Shown here: positions 14,788 to 18,641 of the stretch, in pieces
How the letters are laid out: each line of letters begins with the position of its first letter
Position numbering within the stretch: position 1 is the stretch's first letter
Position numbers and translations under genes: made by a program
Notes under the pieces: generated by a model
What the model was told of the DNA's origin: nothing
Databases searched by the model: none
Seen by the model: only the letters and a program-made list of their open reading frames with translations
Source of the DNA: an alpha proteobacterium MED-G10
GTDB taxonomy: Bacteria > Pseudomonadota > Alphaproteobacteria > Methylaequorales > Methylaequoraceae
Assembly: GCA_002457065.1 (NCBI GenBank)
Contig: NTKR01000010.1
Location: forward strand, 1-32,529
Direction of reading: 5' to 3'
DNA: 32,529 nt

Positions 14788-14833
14788 AGATTCATATTAA
14801 AAATTGTAAGTAAAAATTAAATCAAAAAAATCA

Positions 14834-14874
14834 ATATATTGTTTGACATTTATAATTCATCACTATATATTGTT
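14834..14874 (+). promoter_or_regulatory. Sigma70-type promoter flanked by a direct repeat
   Basis: TTGACA at 14843-14848 and TATATT at 14866-14871 are separated by exactly 17 bases, which is close to the housekeeping consensus. A 10-base direct repeat, ATATATTGTT, occurs at 14834-14843 and 14865-14874, 31 bases apart, touching the -35 and covering the -10 box. Transcription would start near 14878 and run rightwards through the 24-codon ORF. Confidence 0.75.
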
Positions 14875-14887
14875 ATTTAGGACTAGT

Positions 14888-14962
14888 ATGGTAATAACGA
14901 AAATTTGTGCAATAACATTCTCCTCAACATTTTTGTTGTTGCTAGTCTCAAGTCTATTTTAA
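14888..14962 (+). CDS. Putative 24-residue hydrophobic peptide
   Basis: A 24-codon ORF starts at ATG 14888, preceded by AGGA (14879-14882) with five bases of spacing. The peptide has a short start MVITKICAI, then an S/T pair and a leucine-rich stretch STFLLLLVSSLF, so it could span or insert in a membrane. It sits between a near-consensus promoter and a strong terminator, giving a predicted RNA of about 125 nucleotides with nothing else in it. It could be a real small membrane peptide, a type I toxin-like peptide, or an incidental reading frame in a small regulatory RNA. Nothing in the sequence decides between these. No antisense promoter was spotted. Confidence 0.45.
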   Translation: MVITKICAITFSSTFLLLLVSSLF

Positions 14963-14970
14963 TTTCCTCC

Positions 14971-15001
14971 AATAAAACCCTGATTATATCAGGGTTTTAT
15001 T
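14971..15001 (+). terminator. Intrinsic terminator, probably bidirectional
   Basis: AATAAAACCCTGA (14971-14983) pairs perfectly with TCAGGGTTTTATT (14989-15001) around the loop TTATA, giving a 13-base-pair stem with a GGG core and a T-rich downstream arm, followed by GTTT. The flanking A-rich and T-rich arms make it usable from both strands. It ends the small plus-strand unit and could end minus-strand transcripts from the left-reading genes at 15173 and beyond. Confidence 0.9.
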
Positions 15002-15173
15002 GTTTGCGATATAAATTAATCCAGTCTGTAGAGGAAAGTTGTGTGTCAAGATTTTCTTTCGAAGGATAAATACTCAATTCAGAATTTGAGTAATTCTCAA
15101 GGTTTTTTTTAAAAGAGTGATCATTATTTCTTTTAATTCTGTCTAGTCTGATATTATGCATTAAATTAAGCAT
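14997..15173 (-). CDS. Possible 58-residue hypothetical protein
   Basis: A 58-codon reading frame runs leftwards from ATG 15173 (a second Met is at 15161) and stops inside the terminator stem. The predicted peptide is polar and basic at the start (NIRLDRIKRNNDH), acidic in the middle and ends in DWINLYRKQ; there is no signal peptide or membrane helix. Ending in a terminator and lying 33 bases after the four-cysteine protein gene on the same strand favour a real gene. The lack of a Shine-Dalgarno sequence and the low-complexity base composition count against it. No family was recognised. Confidence 0.4.
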   Translation of the reverse strand: MLNLMHNIRLDRIKRNNDHSFKKNLENYSNSELSIYPSKENLDTQLSSTDWINLYRKQ

Positions 15174-15206: not shown

Positions 15207-15515
15207 TTATTTTCTCAAAAAATGTTTCCTAAATTCACAAACTGCAGTGAAATAAGGGTCTCTTGGCCTGGGTTCAGATTTTAATACATTTTTTCTTAAA
15301 TCACAGAACTCAGATATTAAGGAATTTAATAGGTGGCCTGAGTTATTGTATGAAGTGTGAATAGCAATGAAAAAATTATCGGAATTTCTGCATTTACTTA
15401 TCTGTTCTTCAAGATTTCCAGGAGTTATATCTTTATTGTAGACAACTTTACACCAATTACCAGCCTGGGCTAAATCTTGAAAAAAAAATAAAAAACAAAA
15501 TACAATCAATTTCAT
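15207..15515 (-). CDS. Small secreted four-cysteine hypothetical protein
   Basis: The ATG at 15515 gives a 102-residue protein with a clear signal peptide (MKLIVFCFLFFFQDLAQA) and a mature domain with four cysteines (22, 42, 71, 93), enough for two disulfides. The segment NWCKVVYNKDITPGNLEEQI and a late SEFCDLRKNV suggest a compact periplasmic domain. This start is preferred because GGAG lies nine bases upstream and ATGA overlaps the PAP2 stop by four bases; a TTG at 15530 is less likely. I do not recognise a named family. Translational coupling to PAP2 suggests a role in the same periplasmic or envelope process, which is inference. Confidence 0.7.
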   Translation of the reverse strand: MKLIVFCFLFFFQDLAQAGNWCKVVYNKDITPGNLEEQISKCRNSDNFFIAIHTSYNNSGHLLNSLISEFCDLRKNVLKSEPRPRDPYFTAVCEFRKHFLRK

Positions 15516-16282
15516 ATAAATATTCTCCAATACATTAACCTTATAAAATCATATACATTTGTAACGTTAGTTTCCTTATAAATGTTAATTTTTTTTTCAA
15601 AATAATATTTATAAAGAAAAACTGGTACAACAGCTCCCAAATATGCACCAAAAAAAATATCGCTTGGAAAATGCATAGACATAAAGATTCTTGAAATCCC
15701 CATTAATACAGCAAGTGTCAAAATATAAATATGAAATTTGTTTATGTGTATAATTATTAAAACTGCCAATGTAAATGCAGCTTGGGTATGTCCGGATGGG
15801 AATGAATTGGCTTTATGAAAAATATTAAAAAAATCTATTCTTTCAAAACCCTCTAAGAAAAAATATTTTGGCCTAGAAACTCCCATTATATATTTGATAA
15901 TGTTACAAACAATTCCAGCGACTGCTAAGGACCAAAAGAAATGAAGACTTATCGCAGAATAGAACCCAAAAGAATCTGTAATTTTTTTTGAGTCACAACC
16001 AGTTTTTTGAATCATCAAGTTCAACTTAAGCTTGTTCTTTAATACTTTCTTTAATTTCATATTAGACAGGAGAACTACTAGAGTTAAGATAATCACATTT
16101 AGAGGATCAAATATGTCAGAAATTGGATCAATAAAGTTTTTAAAAAAAAAGAAAATCAATTCAGGGAAAGACCTTGAAAATTGAAATACTCTAATGTCTA
16201 AAAAGTTAAATATAAGAAATGTGGAAATTATAACAATTAAGAAAATGTTAAATGATAGAAGCTTATTTAAATATTTGGGCAT
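15512..16282 (-). CDS. PAP2-family membrane phosphatase
   Basis: The 256-residue, six-helix protein carries the full acid-phosphatase signature: KYIMGVSRP (130-138), FPSGHTQ (161-167, His165) and SRIFMSMHFPSD (197-208, His204 and Asp208). The active site would face the periplasm. PAP2 enzymes of this type remove phosphate from lipids: candidates are undecaprenyl diphosphate, phosphatidylglycerophosphate or lipid A 1- or 4'-phosphate (LpxE/LpxF). Location next to the GT39 transferase and near the GT2 and LpxB-N-like genes favours a lipid A or carrier-lipid substrate, but this is inference. It follows the GT39 gene by seven bases and is coupled to the four-cysteine protein gene. Confidence 0.92.
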   Translation of the reverse strand: MPKYLNKLLSFNIFLIVIISTFLIFNFLDIRVFQFSRSFPELIFFFFKNFIDPISDIFDPLNVIILTLVVLLSNMKLKKVLKNKLKLNLMIQKTGCDSKKITDSFGFYSAISLHFFWSLAVAGIVCNIIKYIMGVSRPKYFFLEGFERIDFFNIFHKANSFPSGHTQAAFTLAVLIIIHINKFHIYILTLAVLMGISRIFMSMHFPSDIFFGAYLGAVVPVFLYKYYFEKKINIYKETNVTNVYDFIRLMYWRIFI

Positions 16283-17939: not shown

Positions 17940-18641
17940 ATGAATAATTTTACAATAATAATTCCTATTTATAACGAATCAGATTCAATCTTTAATCTCG
18001 TCGATGAAATCAATAAAGAATTTAATAAATTTAATCCTGAGATCTTAATTGTAAATGATGGTAGCACCGACAATTTTGAAAGCGAAAAGAAAAGGATTGT
18101 AAAAAAAGTAAAAATTTTAGATCATCCACAAAATGCTGGGAAATGTAAAGCTATGTTAACTGGAGTAAAATCTGCAAAATTTGATCTGATATGTGTCATA
18201 GATGGAGATGGTCAAAATCCACCATATGAAATAAAAAAAATGTTAAATTATTGGGAAGATATTCCAAAAGATTGGAAAAGATTTTCTATTATTTGTGGAA
18301 ATAGGAGAAAACGAAAGGATACAATCTTAAAAAAATTGAGTTCTAAAGTTGCTAATAAAATCCGAAAACATATCCTTAAAGATGATTGCAATGATACAGC
18401 TTGTGCCCTAAAAGTTTTTAGAAAACAAGATTATTTAAAATTAGAATATTTTAAAAATATGCACAGATTCTTGCCAGCACTTTTTAAAATGAATGGTGGA
18501 AAAGTATTTAATGTTTTAGTTGATGATAGAGAGAGACTTGCAGGAGTCTCAAAATTTAATTTTAATAATAGGTTTTGGATTGGTATTGCTGATTTGTATA
18601 GAGTTTGGATATTAATAAAAAAAAGGAGAAAAAATGAGTAA
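17940..18641 (+). CDS. GT2-family glycosyltransferase (polyprenyl-phosphate sugar synthase type)
   Basis: The 233-residue protein is a single GT-A domain with no C-terminal membrane helices. Landmarks are IIIPIYNESDSI (6-17), the NDG-x-x-D loop IVNDGSTDN (37-45), the metal-binding DGDGQ (88-92) and the acceptor-side segment DDCNDTACALKVFRK. The size and DGDGQNPP-x-E-I match dolichyl-phosphate mannose synthase/ArnC relatives, which transfer a sugar from a nucleotide donor to a polyprenyl phosphate at the cytoplasmic face. It is divergent from the GT39 gene (48 bases between starts) and overlaps the next gene by eight bases, consistent with the donor-synthesis half of a lipid A or envelope glycosylation pathway. 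Confidence 0.93.
   Translation: MNNFTIIIPIYNESDSIFNLVDEINKEFNKFNPEILIVNDGSTDNFESEKKRIVKKVKILDHPQNAGKCKAMLTGVKSAKFDLICVIDGDGQNPPYEIKKMLNYWEDIPKDWKRFSIICGNRRKRKDTILKKLSSKVANKIRKHILKDDCNDTACALKVFRKQDYLKLEYFKNMHRFLPALFKMNGGKVFNVLVDDRERLAGVSKFNFNNRFWIGIADLYRVWILIKKRRKNE

Follow-up and report, generated by a model that had tools for sequence, protein, structure and literature searches.

Features of the locus

The window, i.e., the whole stretch of 32,529 nucleotides that was analyzed, is part of a 0.99-Mb partial genome. It contains a compact unit on the plus strand, to which the following features were assigned together with an adjoining minus-strand gene:

14831 to 14842, plus strand: conserved upstream element TCAATATATTGT adjoining the −35 hexamer (mean column identity 0.95 vs. 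0.76 further upstream)
14843 to 14871, plus strand: promoter with −35 TTGACA (14843 to 14848), 17-nt spacer and −10 TATATT (14866 to 14871), exact match
14878 to 15003, plus strand: predicted RNA of about 126 nt, 5′ end placed from the −10 (fold z = −6.7; covariance model R1)
14879 to 14882, plus strand: AGGA, a weak ribosome-binding site by sequence, which differs among relatives
14880 to 14888, plus strand: 5′ arm of a stem, GGACUAGUA, extending over the ribosome-binding site up to and including the A of the start codon (97.9% of cells paired)
14888 to 14962, plus strand: 24-codon ORF for the hydrophobic peptide MVITKICAITFSSTFLLLLVSSLF, ATG at 14888 and TAA at 14960 to 14962 (coding selection)
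14940 to 14948, plus strand: 3′ arm of the stem, UGCUAGUCU, corresponding to ORF codons 18 to 21 (covarying pairs)
14951 to 14970, plus strand: linker AGTCTATTTTAATTTCCTCC, near-invariant and including the stop codon (19 of its 20 positions do not vary among 27 sequences)
14970 to 15002, plus strand: intrinsic terminator (15 pairs, 6 of them with compensatory changes; 98% of cells paired)
14997 to 15173, minus strand: convergent 58-aa ORF outside the unit, sharing its terminator (40–72% identity, same location in relatives)

Each copy of the unit is located between an operon for a FAD oxidoreductase, a DUF1365 protein and a cyclopropane synthase on one side and, on the other, the convergent 58-aa ORF, a 107-aa ORF and a PAP2 gene. 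The two small minus-strand ORFs (14997 to 15173 and 15207 to 15530) are conserved and syntenic beside PAP2 across the order, and no family could be assigned to either of them in Pfam or NCBIfam.

Conservation and distribution

Judged by its sequence conservation, the stretch of about 130 bases is almost certainly an unannotated gene, conserved throughout an order of marine methanol users; it is this conservation, and not the promoter match, that establishes the unit. It was found once per genome and at one syntenic location in 28 of 32 genomes of the TMED127/Methylaequorales, marine Alphaproteobacteria. The covariance model R1, built from 27 sequences, detected it in all five of the most complete genomes of the order and gave no match in the other genomes of the class sample (second search with stricter filters). 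A BLASTN search with the intergenic region yielded matches confined to the unit's own family, save for short AT-rich pieces.

When 84,980 species genomes were scanned for the exact linker, 30 stretches were returned, of which 28 contain the unit or a partial copy of it. All 28 come from marine Alphaproteobacteria, represented by MAGs or single-cell genomes (TMED13, AG-892-F10 and others). The remaining two lie outside the order and were rejected as chance matches: one is coding DNA of a Dictyoglomus bin without the unit (L077), and in the other neither the unit nor its neighbours have a match (L080). No linker was found in the viral contigs searched. From names and counts (one family, 12 genera; AG-892-F10) we infer that the host order is the TMED127/Methylaequorales of PMC12542740.

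The conservation edges of the unit are sharp. Across the order, column identity amounts to 0.87–0.98 for the −35 and −10 hexamers, the 12-base upstream element, the ORF, the linker and the terminator stem, and to 0.68–0.76 for the spacer, the terminator loop and the flanks. Conservation of promoter, ORF and terminator in close relatives had been named as a check in the preliminary description of this DNA; all three are conserved, and the unit was thus not refuted.

Promoter and upstream element

The promoter is present exactly as first described. With 11 of 12 consensus positions it is the best promoter match in the window and the sole site reaching at least 11/12. Its strength had also been called notable, which does not hold for the match alone: first-order simulations of the window gave about two matches of equal quality by chance, and promoter-like sites are not enriched (56 observed vs. 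61.5 expected). Since such matches are to be expected by chance in AT-rich DNA, the promoter by itself proves nothing. Column identity among relatives is 0.93 and 0.98 for the two hexamers and 0.70 for the spacer.

The upstream element TCAATATATTGT is conserved to the same degree as the promoter hexamers, and its TATATTG recurs at the −10. It is possibly an operator or part of the promoter of the divergent FAD-oxidoreductase operon. The search for a corresponding regulon was unsuccessful, as the near copies lie in coding DNA, except for one before an unrelated gene.

Predicted RNA and its structure

The fold of positions 14878 to 15010 has an energy of −41.5 kcal/mol (z = −6.7), and none of 200 shuffled sequences folded as strongly, which places it beyond chance. 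RNAalifold predicted a stem of 14880–14888 with 14940–14948 and the terminator. The 5′ arm of this stem is located in the untranslated leader, and compensatory changes occur at three of its nine pairs. When the structure was held fixed, 98% of cells were paired, compared to 30–51% in slid controls. The covariance analysis that had been suggested for the RNA revealed a covarying stem; over the fixed structure, two-sided compensatory changes occur in 43 cells vs. 13 in shuffles. An upper stem is present in each sequence, though its pairs differ between sequences.

The strong terminator that had been described is present and conserved; the fold assigns 15 pairs to it. Because the terminator stem spans 14970 to 15002, the unit, which starts at 14843 as described, ends at about 15003 and not at 15001. 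The terminator is probably bidirectional, the minus-strand ORF at 14997 to 15173 ending within it. Rfam gave no match to the RNA at the gathering score. At loose thresholds PsrR1, mir-338 and others were reported; they match the terminator hairpin only, are absent in relatives and were discarded.

ORF and encoded peptide

Both the AGGA and the leucine-rich 24-residue ORF of the preliminary description could be located. In an alignment of 27 sequences, indels and internal stops are absent from all 75 nt of the ORF. The mean entropy at codon positions 1, 2 and 3 is 0.36, 0.20 and 0.67 bits, respectively, and column permutations gave higher values for the second position (P = 0.0036). In 11 of 12 chosen sequence pairs, which are not mutually independent, amino-acid similarity in frame 0 exceeded that of random placement (P 0.0002–0.05), and in the remaining pair, with only six differences, P was 0.09; neither of the other frames gave a signal in the 12 pairs. 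The comparison of orthologous intergenic regions proposed earlier therefore yielded conservative substitutions in the ORF frame only. On these grounds the ORF is probably translated, and the selection signature points to the translated small protein that characterizes dual-function RNAs.

The peptide has a GRAVY of 1.9 (1.9–2.1 over three relatives), and divergent genera carry MYLTKICALSLSSIFLMLLILSLF or MYITKIGVISLGSIFLLLLIFSLF. ATG is found at codon 1 in 20 of 27 sequences. It is lost in seven genomes, four of which, from two genera, have ATG at codon 2. No ATG is present in three of the 27 sequences, namely two of genus g10, in which ATT replaces ATG and an in-frame GTG lies three codons upstream, and L019 (AG-337-K15, region 1496 to 1710), which has no start codon and carries S13P, with linker and terminator intact. 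The minus-strand ORF opposite the unit (14883 to 14972) was rejected as a gene, because relatives have stops in it and the column with the greatest variability coincides with its second codon position.

Linker and putative seed region

The invariance of the linker covers silent positions and the eight bases after the stop codon. Its 3′ end is the candidate seed AUUUCCUCC (14962 to 14970); the linker is predicted to be largely unpaired, and the seed to be unpaired but for its last base. The linker ends in CCUCC, the anti-Shine-Dalgarno sequence of 16S rRNA. Its 5′ half, AGTCTATTTTAA, is conserved more than a 9-base seed would require. Taken together, the near-invariant linker and the covarying stem suggest a constraint for which coding would be insufficient as an explanation.

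GGAGGAAA-N(1-9)-ATG occurs about three times as often as the reversed control in the genome of the window (17 vs. 5), glnA and tuf being among the genes with such a site just before ATG. Due to this enrichment, many strong ribosome-binding sites could pair with the linker. Extended complements of the whole linker were not found above the reversed control. None of the 32 genomes of the order, five of which are at least 90% complete, contained Hfq (PF17209) or ProQ (PF04352), while the positive controls were detected. Any pairing would thus be chaperone-independent or proceed via another protein, and, with neither of the two detected in the host, the RNA would not belong to the Hfq- or ProQ-dependent small RNAs.

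Functional interpretation

The reading that we favour, with some reserve, is that the unit is a core gene of the order encoding a dual-function RNA, i.e., a small membrane peptide and a trans-acting antisense RNA. The trans-acting function taken separately is likely. In this model, the promoter would yield a short stable RNA, in which the ribosome-binding site and the start codon are enclosed in a hairpin closed by the C-terminal codons of the ORF, so that peptide synthesis would be low or conditional. The exposed AUUUCCUCC would pair with GGAGGAAAU in the ribosome-binding sites or leader regions of other mRNAs, and this without Hfq or ProQ. Since the stop codon lies within the linker, the seed would be masked by any ribosome that completes the peptide, and translation and base-pairing would be mutually exclusive. 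The peptide would probably be a small inner-membrane protein with a regulatory or accessory role.

The main competitor, of lower but appreciable probability, is a plain small-protein gene, whose RNA serves solely as mRNA of the 24-residue membrane peptide, the hairpin tuning translation and the linker contributing to termination, mRNA stability or release. The frame-specific coding selection without indels, the start codon re-formed one codon downstream and the stem concealing the start would all be accounted for. Such a gene does not explain why the noncoding bases between stop codon and terminator stem are invariant in 27 sequences, why the stop-proximal codons are fixed even at silent positions, or why the RNA persists in L019, where no usable start codon is left. 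The retention of linker and terminator in L019 is expected if the RNA also acts alone.

It is improbable that the unit is a noncoding trans-acting small RNA with an accidental ORF, although the strong fold, the covariation, the invariant seed-like linker and the three sequences without ATG would agree with it. Conservative substitutions are confined to one frame, 75 nt including the long apical loop are free of indels, and the ATG is shifted in-frame in two genera. Of the small RNA with an incidental ORF that had been considered initially, the RNA features are thus retained in the form of the conserved stem and linker; the ORF is not incidental, because purifying selection on it is frame-specific.

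The small membrane peptide proposed alongside it is supported as a hydrophobic coding product, in contrast to its toxin-like character, for which size and hydrophobicity had been the basis. A type I toxin, i.e., a small hydrophobic protein with a self-repressed mRNA under antisense RNA control, is slightly less probable still. The predicted peptide does share with such toxins its size, its hydrophobicity (GRAVY 1.9) and its apparent single helix, and the ribosome-binding site is located in a stem. On the other side, no consensus promoter was found on the opposite strand near the ORF, the opposite minus-strand ORF is broken in relatives, and the locus occurs in one copy, in conserved synteny and as part of the order's core genome, unlike toxin-antitoxin loci, which are usually patchy in distribution. 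In length, hydrophobicity and the occlusion of the start codon in cis, the peptide resembles IbsC (19 residues) and ShoB (26 residues), and stem-occluded ribosome-binding sites are contained in type I toxin mRNAs (PMC8309996). It differs from both in that no antisense RNA was found, there being no consensus promoter opposite the ORF, and in being an order-wide core gene with fixed synteny.

Finally, the unit can hardly be the leader peptide and attenuator of a gene downstream, or a remnant of promoter and terminator left between operons: a short ORF followed by a terminator would fit an attenuator, which is contradicted by the gene order, as the genes past the terminator are on the opposite strand and the next plus-strand gene starts at 17940.

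Comparison with known small RNAs

SgrS/SgrT and AzuCR of E. coli are dual-function small RNAs, in which one short RNA combines base-pairing in trans with a small protein, as is predicted for the unit. SR1 of Bacillus subtilis is another (PMC8501984). The unit differs from all three in that its ORF takes up most of the RNA, its codons form a stem over their own start, the stop codon is part of the seed linker, and neither Hfq nor ProQ was detected in the host order. No sequence relation to dual-function small RNAs was found in Rfam, Pfam or NCBIfam.

Among alphaproteobacterial RNAs, NfeR1 (alpha-r14) has an exposed anti-Shine-Dalgarno motif and acts in trans without Hfq (PMC10746234), and the cuckoo/CcsR RNAs modulate C1 metabolism (PMC10253847). 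The unit shares with these families an exposed CCUCC-type motif and a length of about 125 nt. Unlike them, it has one UUUCCUCC in the linker instead of CCUCCUCCC in hairpin loops, its fold differs, a peptide is encoded inside the RNA, and no DUF1127 gene was found among its scanned neighbours. The loop of the unit reads CUCCUC in genus g1 and CUCAUC or AAGUUC in other genera. By its sequence features, the unit is best described as a putative RNA acting like dual-function anti-Shine-Dalgarno RNAs, outside the cuckoo and alpha-r14 families.

xoxF5 as a candidate target

The TMED127/Methylaequorales are abundant uncultured marine methylotrophs, and the mRNA of xoxF5, the lanthanide methanol dehydrogenase, is their top transcript, accounting for 16–57% of the transcripts mapped to one genome and following a diel cycle (PMC12542740). 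That study treats the same order and shares the single-cell genome AG-892-F10 with the matches of the unit; in its available portions it deals with proteins, and the RNA of the unit is not among them. No RNA regulator described for the order was found in a literature search.

The leading candidate target of the linker is the xoxF5 mRNA, although the probability of this link is rather low. GGGAGGAAATC, a non-Shine-Dalgarno site, lies in the leader of xoxF at a distance of about 100 bases from the start codon in 18 of the 22 genomes with xoxF, and in one further leader at a contig end (19 in total); elsewhere it occurs only three times in 32 genomes. Genera g2, g9 and g12 carry weaker forms, and the site is missing from g4. 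It was picked out post hoc, once a search had been run, and part of it is predicted to be paired. About 1–5% of random 140-nt windows pair with the linker at least as strongly as the leader does (calculated energy −14 to −19 kcal/mol); the duplex appears good but not exceptional. Alternatively, the leader site could act as a standby site for ribosomes or belong to a leader hairpin.

The full model, in which an order-wide, Hfq- and ProQ-independent dual RNA controls xoxF5, the dominant transcript of these obligate methylotrophs of the ocean, through its linker, with translation of the membrane peptide and seed pairing being mutually exclusive, is more speculative than its parts. If true, anti-Shine-Dalgarno regulation in trans would persist without the usual chaperones in a streamlined order. 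The unit would then represent a directly testable candidate regulator of the methanol pathway, from a class of genes that escapes ORF-length cut-offs and RNA family libraries.

Furthermore, the xoxF5 leaders themselves (L247 to L268; in the genome of the window L247, 1398 to 1500) contain a conserved GGGAGGAAATCAA about 100 bases upstream of xoxF. It is followed on its 3′ side by variable sequence able to form hairpins, and in genera g9, g11 and g12 another hairpin lies on its 5′ side.
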